This document shows positions 1,332-23,163 of a DNA stretch of 64,000 nt, piece by piece. Source of the DNA: Fusobacterium varium (GTDB lineage: Bacteria; Fusobacteriota; Fusobacteriia; Fusobacteriales; Fusobacteriaceae); NCBI GenBank assembly GCA_900637705.1, contig LR134390.1:2356001-2420000 (forward strand), written 5' to 3'. The notes under the pieces are model-generated. The model was not told where the DNA came from, did not search any database, and saw only the letters and a program-made list of their open reading frames with translations. Every line of letters begins with the position of its first letter. Within the stretch, counting starts at the first letter, position 1. The translations under genes and the position numbers were made by a program.

Positions 1332-2183
1332 TTATAGGATACATAGATTCTTTAAGGACACATCAAGTATTGGTGCTGAATGAGTGAGTGCTCCACTAGA
1401 AATATAGTCAACTCCTGTTTCTATAACAGTTTTAATATTTTCTTTAGTAATATTTCCAGAACATTCTGTTTCAGCTTTTCCAGCAGCCATAAGCACAGCT
1501 TTCTTCATCATTTCAGGGGTCATATTATCAAGCATTATTATATCTGCTCCTGCATCTAATGCTTCCTGCATCATATCCAGATTTTCTACTTCTACTTCTA
1601 TTTTTCTTACAAAAGAAGTGTATTCTTTTGCCATTTTTACAGCTTTAGTTATTCCACCAGCTGCATTTATATGATTATCTTTTAAAAGTACCCCATCTGA
1701 AAGATTATAACGATGATTATATCCACCACCTATTTTTACTGCATATTTTTCAAAGATACGCATATTAGGAGTAGTTTTTCTTGTATCCAAAAGTTTTACT
1801 GAACTTCCTTCCAACAATTTTACCACATTACTTGTATAAGTTGCAATACCACTCATACGTTGTAAAAAATTAAGTGCTGTTCTTTCCCCAGAAAGAAGTG
1901 CTCTCACATCACCTTCTATTTCTGCAATAATATTCCCATTTTTTACATTATCTCCATCTTTAAAATACATTTTAACAGAAATATTTTCATCTAGGAGTTC
2001 AAAAGTACGTTTAAACACATGAAGTCCAGCAATAATTCCATCTTGCTTACATATAAGCTGTACTTTTCCATTTTTCTTTTCCCTCACAACAGAATTAGTA
2101 GTGATATCTTCACTTGATATGTCCTCTCTAAGTGCCATTAAAATTAATTCATCTGCATTTAATTTTGTTGTTATGATATTCAT
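1332..2183 (-). CDS. nadC: Quinolinate phosphoribosyltransferase (nicotinate-nucleotide pyrophosphorylase, carboxylating)
   Basis: NadC converts quinolinate and PRPP to nicotinate mononucleotide, CO2 and PPi, the third step of de novo NAD synthesis. The 283-residue length is standard. Visible family signatures include FLQRMSGIAT, the substrate-binding stretch LLDTRKTTPNMR and the barrel motifs KDNH, EVEVENLDM, DIIMLDNM and ISSGALTHS near the C-terminus. Its start overlaps the nadB stop by 4 bp (ATGA), the usual sign of translational coupling. It is a cytoplasmic enzyme. Confidence 0.97.
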   Translation of the reverse strand: MNIITTKLNADELILMALREDISSEDITTNSVVREKKNGKVQLICKQDGIIAGLHVFKRTFELLDENISVKMYFKDGDNVKNGNIIAEIEGDVRALLSGERTALNFLQRMSGIATYTSNVVKLLEGSSVKLLDTRKTTPNMRIFEKYAVKIGGGYNHRYNLSDGVLLKDNHINAAGGITKAVKMAKEYTSFVRKIEVEVENLDMMQEALDAGADIIMLDNMTPEMMKKAVLMAAGKAETECSGNITKENIKTVIETGVDYISSGALTHSAPILDVSLKNLCIL

Positions 2184-3481
2184 GAGATTTTCTCCTTTTG
2201 ATATTTATCTTTTTCTATTTCTTCAAAAATTATACTTTTATACTCTTTAAACAGATTATCTACATCTTTATATTTTTCTATACAAAACTCTAATTTCTTA
2301 AATGCTGTTTTATCCTGATGGAAGCATATATCTTCTGCTGCTCTTTTTCCAAAAACAAGAGTTTCAAGAAGTGAATTGCTTGCCAGACGATTTGCCCCAT
2401 GAACCCCATTGCAGCTTGTTTCTCCCACTGCATAAAGATTTTCCATAGAGGTCTTGCTATTCAGATTTACTTCAATTCCTCCCATAAAATAATGTTGTGC
2501 CGGAACTACAGGAATACATTCTCTTGTTACATCAAATCCTTCTTCCAGACATTTTTTTACAATATTAGGAAATCTTTTTCTAATATCTATACCTTTTTTC
2601 ATAATAGGCCTCATATCCAGCCATACATATTTAGTTCCATCTTTTTTCATTTGTTCTGATATTTTTTCAGTAAGCTTATCTCTTGGTATAAGTTCATCAG
2701 TAAACCGATTAAAATCTTTATCATATAACAAAGCTCCTTCTCCCCTTACAGATTCTGAAATCAAAAATTTTCTCTCGTGTTTTTCAGAATACAGCGTTGT
2801 TGGGTGAATTTGTATATAGCTTATATCTTTCAATTTTATATTATTTTTTACTGCTATTCCTAAAGAATCTCCAGTTAAATGAGGAAAGTTTGTAGAATTT
2901 TTATATATTCCTCCCAATCCTCCTGTTGCAAGTACCGTATTTTTTGAATAAACAGGGAATATTTTTCCCTGTTTATCCCTCAAAACAACTCCCCCGCATA
3001 TATTATTTTTAGAAATAATATCAATCATCATAGTTTCTGTCAGAAGTGTAATATTCTTCCTTTTTTTTACTTTTTTTAATAATTTTTCCGTTATCTCTTT
3101 TCCTGTTATATCTTCATGATAAAGTATACGAGGCTTGGAATGAGCTCCCTCACGAGTATACAAAAATTCGCCATCTTTGTTTGCAAAATCAACTCCTAAA
3201 TCTACCAATTCTTTTATTATATTTCCAGAAGAATTTATCATTAATTTTACAGCTTCTCTATTATTTTTATAATGCCCTGCTTTCAATGTATCTTCCAGAA
3301 AGCTTTCAAAATCCTCTTTATCTTTTAGAACACATATCCCCCCCTGTGCCAGAAAAGAATCGCTGTCTTCTAGTTCTGATTTTGTAACCATTAAAATCTT
3401 TTTACTCTCAGGAAAGTGAAGGGCTGTAAAGCACCCACCTGCACCTGTTCCAACAATAATAACATCATAATCATCTTTCAT
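2180..3481 (-). CDS. nadB: L-aspartate oxidase
   Basis: NadB is an FAD enzyme that oxidises L-aspartate to iminoaspartate, the substrate of NadA. The N-terminal dinucleotide fold (VIIVGTGAGGCFTALHF) and the AQGGI, TREGAHSKPRILYHEDITG and GETSCNGVHGANRLASNSL motifs of the aspartate oxidase/fumarate reductase family are all present. At 433 residues it is about 100 shorter than the E. coli enzyme. It lacks most of the C-terminal helical domain, as seen in other short anaerobe versions, with no sign of a break in the DNA. It lies between nadA (11-bp gap) and nadC (4-bp overlap). In an anaerobe, fumarate is the likely electron acceptor (inference). Confidence 0.96.
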   Translation of the reverse strand: MKDDYDVIIVGTGAGGCFTALHFPESKKILMVTKSELEDSDSFLAQGGICVLKDKEDFESFLEDTLKAGHYKNNREAVKLMINSSGNIIKELVDLGVDFANKDGEFLYTREGAHSKPRILYHEDITGKEITEKLLKKVKKRKNITLLTETMMIDIISKNNICGGVVLRDKQGKIFPVYSKNTVLATGGLGGIYKNSTNFPHLTGDSLGIAVKNNIKLKDISYIQIHPTTLYSEKHERKFLISESVRGEGALLYDKDFNRFTDELIPRDKLTEKISEQMKKDGTKYVWLDMRPIMKKGIDIRKRFPNIVKKCLEEGFDVTRECIPVVPAQHYFMGGIEVNLNSKTSMENLYAVGETSCNGVHGANRLASNSLLETLVFGKRAAEDICFHQDKTAFKKLEFCIEKYKDVDNLFKEYKSIIFEEIEKDKYQKEKIS

Positions 3482-3492
3482 TTTCTGCCTCT

Positions 3493-4400
3493 CTATTTTC
3501 CTAATTCAAGCATATTTTTTAAAGTTTTATTTGCATTTTCTATGAATTCTAAATCAAGATGCACTTGAGGTTCATTAGCTTCCAATACTCTTATTATTTT
3601 TTCTAAACTTATTTTTTTCATATTTGAACATACCATTTCTTTCGCTGGAGAATAGAACTTTTTATCTGGATTATTTTTTTTCAGTTCATACATTATTCCT
3701 ATCTCTGTGCATATTATAAATTCCTCTTTTTTACTTTCAGCTGCATATTTCAATATTCCTGAAGTGCTACCCACATAATCCCCCATATCAGAAATCTCTT
3801 TTCTACATTCTGGGTGAACTAAAATTTCTGCGTTTGGATATTTCTCTTTCATTTCTTCCACATCTTTTTTGTTACCTCAGCATGAACATAACAGCAGCCA
3901 TTATTAAAAATAAAATTCTTTTCTGGAACTTTTGAGGCTACATATCTTCCTAAATGCTCATCTGGAATAAAATATATATTCTTATTAGAAAGTTTTTTTA
4001 CTATTTTCAAAGCATTAGCTGATGTTACACATACATCTGAGGCTGCCTTTAACTCAGCCGTAGAATTTACATAACATACAACAGCTACATCTTCATACTT
4101 TTTTCTGACTTCTTTTATTTTTTCTATATCTGCCATATGTGCCATTGGACAGTCAGCCTTTTCATCAGGTATAAGTATAGTCTTTTCAGGATTTAAAATT
4201 TTTACACTTTCTCCCATAAAAAATACTCCACACATCACTATTACTTTTTCTTTTAATTTCTGAGCTATTTCACTTAAAAAATATGAATCTCCTACATAGT
4301 CTGCTATTTCCTGTACTTCTTCATTTGTATAGTAATGAGCTAAAATAACAGCTCCTTTTTCTTTCTTTAACTCAAGTATTTTTTTTATTTTACCCTCCAT
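3493..4400 (-). CDS. nadA: Quinolinate synthase, reading frame broken by one base at an A6 run
   Basis: NadA condenses iminoaspartate with dihydroxyacetone phosphate to quinolinate, using a [4Fe-4S] cluster held by three cysteines. Residues 1 to about 178 lie in one frame (HYYTNEEVQEIADYVGDS; cysteines in VVCYVNS and NNGCCYVH). The rest (VHPECRKEI through MVCSNMKKISLEKI, third cluster Cys) lies in another frame. They meet at 3865-3870, six T on the plus strand. One more base gives KKDVEEMKEK and an intact 302-residue enzyme, the normal length. As written, the first part stops after KKMWKK and lacks the third Cys. The site is an exact A_AAA_AAG heptamer in the phase that allows a -1 ribosomal slip. 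The start ATG follows a GGAGGAG SD. Confidence 0.9.
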
Positions 4401-4775: not shown

Positions 4776-5750
4776 TTAAATCATCAGTTCTCCATCTTTT
4801 AATATTACTACACCATCAGCAGTAAGAGTTGGTTTTGTCATTATAAGATCATAGTGACAAGCTGCTTTAATTACTCCCCCTAGAGTTATACTTGTTCCAA
4901 CTCCTATATGAAGTGAACCAAATACTCCTTCATCTTCAAGCATACTCCCTGTAAACTTACATGATGGGTTTAATCCCACTCCAACTTCTGCTATATTATA
5001 TACTTGTGGATCTTTTTTATCTATCCAGTCAGCTGCAAGTTTTTTAGCTTCCTCTCCTCCTGAAATACTTTCAGGGATAATATATCCATCTTTTACTTCT
5101 GCTTTCACTGGAGTTTTTAATAATCCTATTCCAATGTATGGTATACTTGCATCTGCAACTATTACTCCATTTGCACTTCCTTCCACTGGTGATACATTGG
5201 CTTCTACAGTTGGTATAGGTCCAAATTTTCCAGGTTCTACCAATCCTGTCATAGCATTTCCTCTTCTTCCCTTTCCTGAAAGTTTTAAATTTGTTCCCAT
5301 AGGAGTTGTTATAGTTATAACTTCTGCCCCTGCCATTGCAGCTGCTACTTTTTTACAATTTTCTGCTGCTTCATAGAAATTTGCATTTACTCCTCCAGTT
5401 ATCATCTGATCTTCATTAAACTGCGTAAGCATTACTCCTCTTGAACCAGCAGCACATGCATCTTTTACTGCATGAGTATGAGTTATTGATGTAAATACTG
5501 CACCTATAAATGCATCAGATTCCTTCATTGCAGCTGCTATTGTTTTTGGTGGCTCTTGTCCATCTCTTTCTCTTGACATCATTATATGTATAGTTGGTTC
5601 TGCCCCTGCTGCTATTACTGCAGCTGCCAAAGCTTCTGCTATCCTCATTTGCTTAGGCTCTGTAACTATAACTACATTCTCTCCTGCCTTTACACCTAAA
5701 TTTATTTCAACTATTGATCTTGCTCCTTTAGCCATTAATATTTTTTTCAT
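4776..5750 (-). CDS. M29/NicX-like metal-dependent hydrolase (annotated variously as aminopeptidase or dihydroxypyridine dioxygenase-like)
   Basis: This 324-residue soluble protein shows the overall pattern of the thermophilic-aminopeptidase (M29)/NicX superfamily. The N-terminal Rossmann-like half has VKAGENVVIVTEPKQMRIAEAL and the C-terminal half is metal-binding (ISGGEEAKKLAADW, NIAEVGVGLNP, EDEGVFGSLHIGVG). Conserved acidic and His residues near E-x-x-V-G, H-I-G-V-G and H-Y-D could bind metal. It follows the GltS-type permease gene by 39 bp in the same direction, so the two probably form an uptake-plus-hydrolysis unit for a peptide-like or carboxylated compound. The NicX name is only a superfamily likeness. 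Given the neighbouring nad genes, a link to pyridine compounds is tempting but unsupported. Confidence 0.7.
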   Translation of the reverse strand: MKKILMAKGARSIVEINLGVKAGENVVIVTEPKQMRIAEALAAAVIAAGAEPTIHIMMSRERDGQEPPKTIAAAMKESDAFIGAVFTSITHTHAVKDACAAGSRGVMLTQFNEDQMITGGVNANFYEAAENCKKVAAAMAGAEVITITTPMGTNLKLSGKGRRGNAMTGLVEPGKFGPIPTVEANVSPVEGSANGVIVADASIPYIGIGLLKTPVKAEVKDGYIIPESISGGEEAKKLAADWIDKKDPQVYNIAEVGVGLNPSCKFTGSMLEDEGVFGSLHIGVGTSITLGGVIKAACHYDLIMTKPTLTADGVVILKDGELMI

Positions 5751-5789
5751 ATTTACCTCCTAGTATTTTATATACTTTCATGCTATTTC

Positions 5790-6983
5790 TTATTTATATA
5801 TATTTATAAAGGCTACTATTATTGCTGAATTAAAAAAGTTTATAAATAAACTTCCTACTAATGGAAGAATAAAAAATGCTGTTGGAGCAGGTCCATATTT
5901 TTCTTCTATTGACTGCATATTCGCCATAGCTGTTGGCACAGCTCCAAGTCCAAATCCACAGTGCCCTACTGCCATCATTGCAGCTTCATAATTTTTACCC
6001 ATAACTTTATAAGTCAAGAATACTGCACATAATCCCATTAATATAGTTTGAGCTATTAACAATATTATCATTGGAACAGCAAGATCTGTCAGCTGCCATA
6101 ATTTCAAGCTCATCATTGAGAAGGCTAAAAATAGTATCAATGAAATATCACCTATTATTCTTATTTCATTCTCTTTTATTTTTAACCAAGTTGAGTAGTC
6201 TGCAATGTTTCTTATTATTGCTGCTGCAATCATTGCTCCAACTGAAGCTGGAAATGTTAGCCCTGTTTTCTTCAAAAGCATTGATATTATACTTCCAAGA
6301 GCCATAGATACTAAAAGCTGGTAAACAGCTGAATATATTCTCTTTTCATCAAGTTTTTCATTTCCTTTTTCAATATCTTCTATTCCTTCTACTTTTTCTG
6401 CTGCTTTTCCAGTTAAAAGTTTATATTTCTCAATAAGGAATTTTCCTATTGGTCCACCTGTCAAACTTCCTGCTACTAATCCAAATGTAGCTGCTGCTAA
6501 AGTTATAGTTAGTGCATTTTGAAGTCCTGCCTCTTCCAATACTGGAGCAAATGCTGCTGAAGTTCCATGTCCTCCTGTCATTGGTATAGAAGCTGTTGCT
6601 AATCCTACTAAAGGATTTAATCCTAAAAGTTTTGCAAGGTATACTCCTAATAAATTCTGAAGAATAACCACTATTATAGAAACTATAAGGAATTTTATAA
6701 CCTTTGGTCCACCTTTTTTCAATAACTTATAACTTGCAGTAAAACCTATACTTGAATAAAATGCAAGCATAAATACATCACTGAGAGCAAAATTAAATTT
6801 AAAGGTAAATAATCCAGTACTGTACCCAATTGACACTAAAATAGTAAAAAGAAGTCCTCCAATAACTGGTATTGGTATGCAAAATTTTCTAAGTATTTCT
6901 GCTCTTTTCTTAACATAATCTCCAACTAATAAAACGATAACAGCCAACGCAGTTGTAAGAAATAAATTTAAGTCAATTACCAT
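5790..6983 (-). CDS. gltS: Sodium:glutamate symporter family (GltS/ESS) permease
   Basis: A hydrophobic protein of 397 residues with about ten membrane segments and two inverted halves. The family signature GGHGTSAAFAP follows the fifth segment, and a related element, GHCGFGLGAVPTAMANM, occurs in the second half. ESS carriers import glutamate with sodium across the inner membrane. The soluble linker (about residues 195-215, EGIEDIEKGNEKLDEK) separates the halves as usual. It is transcribed with the downstream hydrolase (4776-5750). A 17-bp site shared with the FCD regulator at 1-628 lies about 95 bp upstream. The true substrate may be a glutamate analogue. Confidence 0.88.
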   Translation of the reverse strand: MVIDLNLFLTTALAVIVLLVGDYVKKRAEILRKFCIPIPVIGGLLFTILVSIGYSTGLFTFKFNFALSDVFMLAFYSSIGFTASYKLLKKGGPKVIKFLIVSIIVVILQNLLGVYLAKLLGLNPLVGLATASIPMTGGHGTSAAFAPVLEEAGLQNALTITLAAATFGLVAGSLTGGPIGKFLIEKYKLLTGKAAEKVEGIEDIEKGNEKLDEKRIYSAVYQLLVSMALGSIISMLLKKTGLTFPASVGAMIAAAIIRNIADYSTWLKIKENEIRIIGDISLILFLAFSMMSLKLWQLTDLAVPMIILLIAQTILMGLCAVFLTYKVMGKNYEAAMMAVGHCGFGLGAVPTAMANMQSIEEKYGPAPTAFFILPLVGSLFINFFNSAIIVAFINIYK

Positions 6984-7077
6984 AATTTTCCTCCTTTATT
7001 CTCAGTTATTTTATCTATAGAACTGCTTTTGGCTTTTTTATAATGTCATAGTCATTTCCAATAAAAAAACATTATAC

Positions 7078-7094
7078 ATTCTATAGAATATATT
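7078..7094 (-). promoter_or_regulatory. Operator candidate for the FCD regulator, upstream of the GltS-type permease
   Basis: This site contains the perfect palindrome ATTCTATAGAAT and matches the minus strand of 704-720 at 16 of 17 positions. A minus-strand TATAAT (about 7076-7071) lies directly next to it, so the site would overlap the spacer/-35 region of the permease promoter, a typical repressor position. Confidence 0.55.
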
Positions 7095-7150
7095 ATATTT
7101 TAAATTTACACTTTTTTATTCAAAAAGTCAATAGAAAATCTTATTTCCTT

Positions 7151-7197
7151 ACATAAAAATAAACGACCTCAAAAGCTTAATCGCTTTTGAAGCCGTT
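7151..7197 (-). terminator. Intrinsic terminator
   Basis: AACGGCTTCAAAAGC and GCTTTTGAGGTCGTT pair (two G-U) around a 6-nt loop, followed by TTATTTTT on the minus strand. It ends the serine hydrolase unit. The 170 bp between this hairpin and the hydrolase stop contain only a doubtful 38-codon frame with no SD. Confidence 0.8.
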
Positions 7198-7370
7198 TTG
7201 ATAAAAATATTTTTTGTTAAATCTATTTCTTTGATTTTTTTAAATAACTCCCCTCTTGCCTATTATTATTTCTTTATTAATTCCAATATACTTTAACTTC
7301 TCATATTTTATAATGAAAACAGTCTTTCCATTTTCTATGATTAGAGGCTGCATCATTAGCTGTTTGTTTA

Positions 7371-8096
7371 TTATTTAGAATAATTATCAAAAATTAATTT
7401 TCCAATTAAGCTGTTTATTTTAATACCATCTTCATTTTCTTCTAAATCCTTTGTAAGAACTACTATATCTACCCACCCGTTATCAAAAAATAATCTTCCT
7501 GCATCATGTTCTGTATACATAAGTTCCCCTGTTTTATGAGCAAAATCTACCTCTCTTGGATAATAAAGAGGTATCTTATTATTATATGCTTGATTTCTCA
7601 ACATGTCCAAATCATCAGAATTTCCACATAATATTTCCAATACTTTCAAGACATCTTCAGGAGTAGTAAAATTATCTTTTCCAGCTTTTCTAGCTTCTGT
7701 GTCCATCATTTTTCTCCCTAAAACCGTTCCTCTAAATCCATTTGCCTTGATGCTTTCATTTATTTTATCCATTCCAATATAGTCTATAAGAATATTTGTT
7801 GCTGTATTATCACTAAGACATATCATAAGGTAGGCTACATCTTTTATAGTAAGAGGAAGTCCATCTTCCATCACTTTTAGGATTCCACACCCTCCAACTT
7901 TATCTTCTTTTTTTAATTCTATCTTTTTGTTGTACTCATCTTTATTCAGTGCCATAAGAATAAAAAGTTTTATTATACTTGCTGATGGAAATATCACTTC
8001 TTCATTTATCATAATTTTCTTTCCAAAAGAATCTCTTACTATTACTCCAGTGACACCACTATTTTCATTTATTATTTCCCTTATTCTTTTCTCCAT
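7371..8096 (-). CDS. Class A beta-lactamase-like serine hydrolase
   Basis: This 241-residue protein has the three penicillin-recognising motifs in order: SxxK (S40-I-I-K43), SDN (95-97) and KTG (188-190). There is also an acidic omega-loop region near MMDTEARKAG. No signal peptide or lipobox is visible, unlike periplasmic beta-lactamases, so it is probably cytoplasmic. This subgroup (beta-lactamase2 fold) includes amidases and peptidases that do not confer drug resistance. It lies 24 bp after a permease gene (8121-9425) in the same direction. A role in cleaving an amide or peptide brought in by that carrier is the simplest inference. Resistance should not be assumed. Confidence 0.82.
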   Translation of the reverse strand: MEKRIREIINENSGVTGVIVRDSFGKKIMINEEVIFPSASIIKLFILMALNKDEYNKKIELKKEDKVGGCGILKVMEDGLPLTIKDVAYLMICLSDNTATNILIDYIGMDKINESIKANGFRGTVLGRKMMDTEARKAGKDNFTTPEDVLKVLEILCGNSDDLDMLRNQAYNNKIPLYYPREVDFAHKTGELMYTEHDAGRLFFDNGWVDIVVLTKDLEENEDGIKINSLIGKLIFDNYSK

Positions 8097-8120
8097 TATT
8101 AAATTCCCCCATATTTCATT

Positions 8121-9425
8121 TTAAATTGAATAAATAACTGCTCTTACTATTACATATATTATCATTACTATAGTTATTGATATTCCATTTCTTATCATAC
8201 TTTTTAAATCTTTTGAACGTGCCAGTCCCATTTGTCCTATCATATCTCCAGTTGGATAAGCAAAAGATGTTATTTGTGAACCTATTAAAAGCACAGTTCC
8301 CCATATGGTCATAGGTAGATTTATATCAGCAACTATATTTTTAAATAAGTCATTTAGTACAACTGATTGTGCTACTGCTGCTCCTGATACTCCAAATATT
8401 CCTACAAGTGTACTTATTATTATAAATCCTATATCTCCACTTACTTCTATTAATGGCTTTAACATATCTCCAAGTGTAGTAAATGCTCCTGTCATTGTTA
8501 CAAATTTTAAGAATGGATCATACAATACAAACATGAAGAACAGCCAGAACATTCTTGTTGCCCCTTTTGTCAAGCTTCCAATAATATCCATCATACTTCT
8601 TCCTGCTGTTAATCCTGTTGTAAAAGCTACTGCAAGCATAACTACAATTGCATATGCTGCTCCTGCTTTTGCATATATACCATATGCCAGCATTCCTATC
8701 ATTACTATGGCAAATACCATTGTTGCCTTATCTATTTCAGGTGTAGACCTAAATTCTTCATCTCTATCCATGTCTTCTGCTGAATATACTTCAATTCCTT
8801 CATACTGTTTCTGCACTTTTTTTCCAGTGTAATAAGTAGTTATAAGTACAAGAATAGTTACTGGTATACCTACATTAGCCAGATATGCCCCATATGTAAG
8901 TCCTGTTATTCCCATCAATGTAATCACTGGAGGAACAAATGGACCTAAAAATAATCCACATGCACCAGCACCATGAAGAATAACTGCCAATGCATTAGGT
9001 GTCAATCCAAAACTTGCAACTATTGGTATCAAAATTGGAGCTATCATAGCATTTGCTCCTGCTAATGTTCCTAAAAGAGAAACTAGCAAAGTTGAAGTCC
9101 CCATTGTAACTATTATAGCTTGATTCTGGCTTTTTATTCCTACTTTTTTTATTAGTATTTCTACTAGATTTCTAGCAACCTTTGTTTCTGTAAGAACTTC
9201 CCCCAATCCTGCTCCCATCATTATGATGAATCCAATAAGACCTAAAAATGATTTCAATCCATTTGCTATTTCATTGGATAAACTTACTGGAGTCTGTCCA
9301 GTTAAAACTGCTCCTACTAAAACGCAAATGATAACTGTAGAAAGTAGATTTTTCCCCTTAAATGCAAGATACAAATAGATAACTAGAGGTAAAAAACCTA
9401 TTAATGCTGGTAACCCAAATATCAT
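8121..9425 (-). CDS. Ion transporter superfamily permease (NhaC/GntP-like)
   Basis: A 434-residue integral membrane protein with about eleven to twelve hydrophobic segments. The two repeat-like halves have re-entrant glycine-rich stretches (MMGAGLGEVLTETKVARNL, HGAGACGLFLGPFVPPV, GVSGAAVAQSVVLNDLF, FAYPTGDMIGQMGLA). These are typical of the IT superfamily carriers for carboxylates or Na+/H+ exchange. A charged cytoplasmic loop lies in the middle (about residues 205-235). The SD AAGGAGGGG precedes the ATG. It is the first gene of a two-gene unit with the serine hydrolase. The substrate is unknown; an organic anion or peptide-like compound is suggested by the partner. Confidence 0.75.
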   Translation of the reverse strand: MIFGLPALIGFLPLVIYLYLAFKGKNLLSTVIICVLVGAVLTGQTPVSLSNEIANGLKSFLGLIGFIIMMGAGLGEVLTETKVARNLVEILIKKVGIKSQNQAIIVTMGTSTLLVSLLGTLAGANAMIAPILIPIVASFGLTPNALAVILHGAGACGLFLGPFVPPVITLMGITGLTYGAYLANVGIPVTILVLITTYYTGKKVQKQYEGIEVYSAEDMDRDEEFRSTPEIDKATMVFAIVMIGMLAYGIYAKAGAAYAIVVMLAVAFTTGLTAGRSMMDIIGSLTKGATRMFWLFFMFVLYDPFLKFVTMTGAFTTLGDMLKPLIEVSGDIGFIIISTLVGIFGVSGAAVAQSVVLNDLFKNIVADINLPMTIWGTVLLIGSQITSFAYPTGDMIGQMGLARSKDLKSMIRNGISITIVMIIYVIVRAVIYSI

Positions 9426-21631: not shown

Positions 21632-23163
21632 TTATTTTACAAATATAGGGGAACTCCATGCAGCTCCACCATCTTTCTGCCATACTCTCACTCTAACATT
21701 TGAAATGTTAGTAGTATCTATAGTTTTTTCTATTCTTCTTGTGTAGCCTGAAACAGGAACAGCTTTAGAAAGCTTTATTTTATAAGCATTATGCCACCAA
21801 GGATCAGTTCTGTAATACTCTGTAAAATTAAAGTTTTCTTTTAAAAGGTCTTCTGCTTCTTCCAATAATGGTATCAATCTAGAAGATTCAAATAATTCTT
21901 TTACCTCAAACTTATACTCTTTTCCATCAACTGTAAGAGTGATAAAACTATCAATAGGAGCTGATATTTCAAATATAAACCCTTCTGTTGTTACAGCACT
22001 AGGTCCCATCCATTTTCCTGTAGCTGTTGTTTTATATGAAGTTAAATCAAATTTACAACTGTTGTCTGTAACATCATATAGACGCTGTCCAAAATTACTC
22101 CAGCATTTTTCAATAGATAAAATTTTCCCTTCTGTTGAAAGAGAACCACTCCAGTTTCTTGATTTTATATCAGGAAATATCCTTCTGTCTGGTCCCCAGC
22201 CAAAGTCTGCTTTAAATTTAAATTGAACATTTTTATCAAGAGCTTTCTTTTCCCATGTTGAAGTATGAGGAATCATTTCAGTTGTTATATTATCTTCTAT
22301 AATCTCTATTCTATCTATTGCATTTGAAGCTTCTACATTTAGTACAAGTTTAGAGTCTTTTTTTGGAGTTACACTCCCCCCCATGATAGTATCATCTATT
22401 GAAAAATCCAGTTTTATTCTATCTTTGCTTACTCCATAGACTCTTTTATTTATAAAGGCATCCCAAATACTTTCTTTTGTATTATCCTCAGCCAATACAG
22501 CAATGTATCCAAATCCATAAACTCCAGGAACAGAATGATTATCTCCAGAAGCTATCACTCCAAATTGATGTCCTTTCTCCCAACCTTTTCTACAGCTGTT
22601 ACTCCTGTTCTAGGTCCCATATGAATATGTCTGTCCATTGTAAACTGACTTTCGTCATTTTCACTAGAACCATGTGATGAATAAATTTCTGCAAATGGTG
22701 AAAACTTATCATTGTGTGTTTCCCAGTTTTTTCCCCTATGACCAAGTTCATATGCCAGATGATGAGGAATAGCTATACAATCAACCTCTCTAAAGTTTTT
22801 TTCAAGCTCTGAATATCTAAGAGGAAAATATGGATTTTGATTATTCTTTAAAAAGAAAACATTATGATCTCCATCTTTTCCTGCTCCCTGCCATTCATAT
22901 CCCATGAACATAGGGAAGCCCTCTTTATTAACTTTTTCAGTAAATTCTCTTATATATTCCCAATCAGCCTGTACTTTGTCCATAGAGTAAATATCCTCTA
23001 CTCCCAGTCCACACTCATCTTTTCTCATATAATATGGATAATATGCAAAAGGCCAGAAATCAAAAATATCTTTCACCTGCTCAAACCATAAGGGTAATTT
23101 ATTTATACTCTCATGATGTAGATTACTGTGCATATCACTCCATAGTATTTTATATTTGTTCAT
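21632..23163 (-). CDS. DUF3604/PHP-like metallohydrolase, frame broken at an A4 run
   Basis: The two open frames 23163-22555 and 22558-21632 are halves of one 510-residue protein. At 22586-22589 one added base changes EKVGRKD-stop to EKGWEKGHQFGVIASGDNHS, which joins them cleanly. The N-terminal half resembles PHP/DUF3604 proteins, with metal-binding His clusters WSDMHSNLHHE, AIPHHLAYE and SGDNHS. The C-terminal half is beta-rich with no known catalytic motif. DUF3604 proteins are often found with sulfatases and glycan-use genes, as here (sulfatase 19 bp downstream, nanE 18 bp upstream). The reaction is unknown; a phosphoester or sugar-derivative hydrolase is plausible. No signal peptide is seen. 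Confidence 0.72.

Follow-up and report, generated by a model that had tools for sequence, protein, structure and literature searches.

Among the slippery motifs of Escherichia coli, A_AAA_AAG is one of the most efficient when stimulatory elements are present (PMC4066793; for this and the other reports cited, we draw on extracts of the text). In dnaX, these elements are a Shine–Dalgarno-like sequence 10 nt upstream and a hairpin about 6 nt downstream of the heptamer (PMC11162774). The motif as such is found in 68 genes of E. coli; for spontaneous frameshifting, an estimate of 10^-4 to 10^-5 has been given (PMC9307594). E. coli has no lysine tRNA with the anticodon CUU and possesses a sole tRNA-Lys, as stated in a report that also describes corrective frameshifting of indels, known mostly from mitochondria (PMC5009743). 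Broken frames are also a familiar feature of long-read assemblies, where errors are mostly short indels at homopolymers and deletion errors there fragment many genes; in one such assembly, correction brought the proportion of annotated pseudogenes down from 23.3 to 5.6% (PMC12007338). Judged from titles and the openings of abstracts, none of the papers found on quinolinate synthase and frameshifting deals with a recoding event in nadA.

The window analysed here, a stretch of 64,000 nt from the Fusobacterium varium contig LR134390.1, carries the only nadA gene of the genome (minus strand, 3493–4400), which is broken in two by a change of frame. At the break the minus strand reads ACA AAA AAG ATG TGG AAG AAA TGA, with the TGA at 3849–3851 closing the 0 frame. 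The 5′ part (minus strand, 3849–4400) comprises 183 codons plus this TGA, matches positions 2–187 of PF02445 and holds two of the residues that we take to be the three cluster cysteines. The third, in an HPEC motif, sits in the 3′ part, which lies in the −1 frame (minus strand, 3493–3861; 122 codons counted from a mechanically chosen GTG; PF02445 positions 172–295), and in the assembled text the presumed set is thus divided between two frames instead of being contained in one polypeptide. A match of near full length to the 295 positions of PF02445 is obtained only as these two pieces, both above the cut-off, while the NCBIfam NadA models give partial matches to the 5′ part that remain under their cut-offs. 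A profile search with PF02445 revealed no second NadA match in the 3.30-Mb single-contig genome, and a search of a plasmid collection returned three partial matches and no copy at same-species identity. The neighbouring genes on the same strand are unbroken: nadB, encoding L-aspartate oxidase (2180–3481; NF004820, 566 bits with a cut-off of 472), nadC (1332–2183; TIGR00078, 355.6 bits with a cut-off of 198.4) and a regulator-like ORF of 168 aa (800–1306) which has no NCBIfam match and presumably resembles the niacin repressor NiaR.

As a preliminary description of this DNA had pointed out, the break sits on an exact A_AAA_AAG heptamer (minus strand, 3864–3870) in the phase required for a −1 slip into the frame of the 3′ part, and an in-frame heptamer of this kind is what the site has in common with dnaX. 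The likeness does not extend to the surrounding signals. The Shine–Dalgarno-like GAGG (minus strand, 3875–3878) is situated 4 nt upstream, closer than the 10 nt of dnaX, again as first described. The same description had seen no clear downstream hairpin, and folding led to the same result: the 89 nt that follow gave a z-score of −1.33, a value matched by 19 of 200 shuffled sequences, and have their main stem at a distance of about 42 nt, and a segment of 40 nt starting 5 nt past the heptamer gave 0.02, so that neither contains a convincing stimulatory hairpin, let alone one about 6 nt downstream as in dnaX. In contrast to E. coli, the genome also encodes a tRNA-Lys with the anticodon CUU beside the one with UUU (anticodons were read for 30 of 57 tRNA loci), and the former should hold AAG better than does the single tRNA-Lys that E. 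coli possesses (PMC5009743). The heptamer is moreover unremarkable against its chance background, since in-frame A_AAA_AAG is present in 9 of the 49 window ORFs of at least 150 aa and in 55 of 305 ORFs of this minimum length in 400 kb of G008, the closest relative found. At nadA it is not evidence of programmed frameshifting. We have rejected programmed −1 frameshifting as the main reading on the basis of folding, Shine–Dalgarno spacing, tRNA content and heptamer background, together with the homologues considered below.

NadA is present in 5 of the 12 genomes of the genus and in 28 of the 61 genomes of the family that were searched, our own included in each case; it is unbroken in the other 4 and 27, and missing from 7 and 33, respectively. 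The break region is spanned by one open frame in all 98 homologous NadA loci, 71 of which came from the homologue search and 27 from the family genomes, with some apparently the same genome drawn from two collections (e.g. L027/L099 and L084/L102). A functional NadA composed of two polypeptides was set aside because all of these loci are unsplit. None of the 98 has A_AAA_AAG at the position of the break, and a single one has it inside a wider span of 16 codons. The residue aligned to the second codon of the heptamer is acidic in 77 of them (glutamate in 45, aspartate in 32) and lysine in 4. In G008, which shares 85% DNA identity, there is one extra base at the break and neither such an A run nor GAGG; at the GAGG site it reads GCTGCT where our genome reads GCTGAG. 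The preliminary description had assumed that a pure A run was shortened. This can be refined: with mostly acidic residues at the second heptamer codon of the homologues, the A run itself may have been produced by the base loss rather than being an old slippery site. By simple counting against G008, dN/dS is 0.078 on the 5′ side of the break (176 codons) and 0.084 on its 3′ side (123 codons); the two values being alike, the 3′ part of nadA gives no sign of relaxed constraint.

The same kind of break recurs throughout the assembly. For comparison, we took the 400 kb of our genome that surround the window and an equal length of G008, and placed the ORFs of each on the other; ORFs of at least 100 aa were taken mechanically, and some are possibly spurious, notably one at offset 378161. 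Of the 324 ORFs of G008 placed on our genome, 32 contained frame changes, 35 in total (about 33 when the two that repeat an already counted site are set aside), compared with 3 in 323 ORFs in the reverse direction. In a further pair of 400-kb sets, 6 frame changes were found in 5 of 84 ORFs of G008 and 1 in 88 in the reverse direction, the small number of ORFs being due to a partial loss of synteny in that region. Realignment of 31 of the 32 broken ORFs (one, a paralogue matching the site of another, was excluded) yielded 54 non-triplet gaps. Single-base losses account for 39 of these and longer losses for 7, and the other 8 are gains. Four of the gains are of a single base, and each of these is located either at the start of an ORF or in one ORF that is doubtful. 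The 39 losses correspond to about 38, since the ORF of G008 at offset 89683 (plus strand) overlaps another broken ORF in antisense and the same loss is counted twice. An A or T run of at least 4 is touched by 31 of the 39 single-base losses and by none of the other 8. With a divergence of 8–22% from G008 in these ORFs, the exact position of a gap may be off. In the second region, realignment gave 5 single-base losses and one loss of 4 bases. This amounts to a break rate of about 0.1 per kb, or roughly one in every 10 kb of the coding sequence compared, and to a 9% chance of a break for a gene of the length of nadA. An in-frame X_XXY_YYZ is left by 14 of the 39 losses and an exact A_AAA_AAG by 3, nadA included. 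Given these figures and the frequency of A_AAA_AAG in the ORF background, breaks in this assembly should often carry a phased heptamer.

The broken genes were named through NCBIfam matches of their intact counterparts in the relative (26 of the 32 in the first region and all 5 in the second, 9 of these 31 remaining without a match). Among those that could be named are murD, ispD, a type III pantothenate kinase, mutS, citrate lyase ligase, a flavocytochrome c and a TrkH-like transporter. The murD gene is split by a single-base loss (contig C1, 3034635–3035986), and the one match above cut-off in the whole genome begins at position 85 of 441, the first ~83 codons lying in another frame. A single-base loss likewise divides ispD (contig C1, 3017090–3017787) into two pieces, and no match in the genome exceeds the cut-off. 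For type III pantothenate kinase, the form searched for, a single gene was found, and its end is out of frame. Most bacteria that possess MurD and IspD cannot live without them, which makes real losses in their genes hard to accept. The excess of single-base losses, some of them in genes normally required for life, can be read directly from the sequences, as can the split of nadA and its intact homologues. In mutS, too, the frame is interrupted where an A run has lost a single base (contig C1, 2277351–2279971); if this break is true, the strain would be a mutator. The phenomenon reaches beyond coding sequences, in that one of the two 23S rRNA copies (L213, 23S at 5354–8263) is one G short in a G5 run that is complete in the sister operon and in three 23S copies of G008; the two 16S copies contain no loss peculiar to our genome. 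Nine long genes that are normally essential were found unbroken: rpoB, two of the ileS type, valS-, leuS- and metG-like genes, dnaE, a polC-like gene and gyrA, those written as -like having matches that fall under the cut-off of the model used. Over their 27 kb, 2.9 breaks would be expected, with a probability of 0.056 of finding none (2.75 and 0.064 when repeats are removed). One match piece of the metG-like gene showed two internal stops, and the region when fetched proved to be an unbroken frame of 641 codons. The ileS cut-off is exceeded by two synthetase genes (contig C1, 322564–325071 and 2698174–2700660).

We consider it very probable that the nadA break is an assembly error and that a base has been missed in the text. 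The locus would then hold a normal gene for quinolinate synthase, and its frame would be interrupted nowhere but in the assembled text, one base of the A-rich stretch having been missed at sequencing or consensus calling, and the A_AAA_AAG in −1 phase, probably a by-product of the missed base, would be a possible remnant of its loss with no decoding signal. Such an error is favoured because like losses affect unrelated, partly normally essential genes and rRNA. Frameshifting had initially been rated as possible but weaker than sequence error, and the comparison with the relative strongly favours error. The pattern resembles that reported for long-read assemblies, with single-base losses at or beside homopolymers in many unrelated genes that give rise to apparent pseudogenes. 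It departs from the cases described in that report (PMC12007338) in that 8 of the 39 losses are off A or T runs of at least 4. The analysis covered the text of a single assembly; the searches turned up no second one of this species, though some of them may leave out records very close to our genome. It is from this text that we infer the losses to be absent from the DNA of the living cell. The nine unbroken long genes and the 16S copies are counterpoints to error, and the broken mutS fits a mutator.

On a rival reading the deletion is real: nadA would recently have become a pseudogene, perhaps in a mutator, leaving a cell that needs niacin from outside. A dispensable nadA would be nothing unusual among the relatives, many of which lack it, and both the mutS break and the integrity of the nine long, normally essential genes are compatible with genuine mutation. 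We nevertheless judge this improbable, as splits in essential genes such as murD and ispD, like that in the one type III pantothenate kinase found, and the fact that single-base gains are almost absent weigh for error over real mutation; loss of mismatch repair gives indels of both signs. The unbroken state of nadB and nadC and the equally low dN/dS after the break also argue against it, although a very recent event would leave both as they are. If instead the text is correct, ribosomes could slip by −1 on A_AAA_AAG and produce full-length NadA, in a programmed or a corrective manner. The exact heptamer in the correct phase and the high efficiency of this motif in E. coli given stimulators (PMC4066793) speak for such productive frameshifting, and corrective rescue, which would likewise restore a gene after the loss of one base, has its precedents, mostly in mitochondria (PMC5009743). 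The nadA case differs from these precedents in that it is known from sequence only and that a simpler cause accounts for the like losses elsewhere in the assembly. With the site missing in every homologue, GAGG too close, the dnaX-type hairpin lacking (PMC11162774), a CUU tRNA-Lys at hand and phased heptamers common at the breaks of this genome, we regard frameshifting as very unlikely. Fainter still is the prospect that the two combine, the losses being real in a mismatch-repair-deficient fusobacterium that tolerates hundreds of them, with −1 slippage on the leftover runs rescuing nadA and even essential genes.

The assembly error that we favour for nadA carries a caution of wider bearing. 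In an A/T-rich genome, one-base losses create phased slippery heptamers at breaks unaided, and for this reason a heptamer, even in the proper phase, says little in favour of recoding. The frame breaks of this assembly, that of nadA included, provide no basis for niacin auxotrophy or recoding before the reads are checked; should the losses turn out to be true, the strain would represent a striking case of frameshift rescue. A second break is present in the window itself, a single-base loss at about 22585–22588 within an ORF spanning 21635–23163 on the minus strand; its counterpart in the relative is an unbroken ORF of 510 aa with no NCBIfam match at 1e-10. The contamination listed for the genome is 4.69%, a value that split marker genes counted twice may partly explain.
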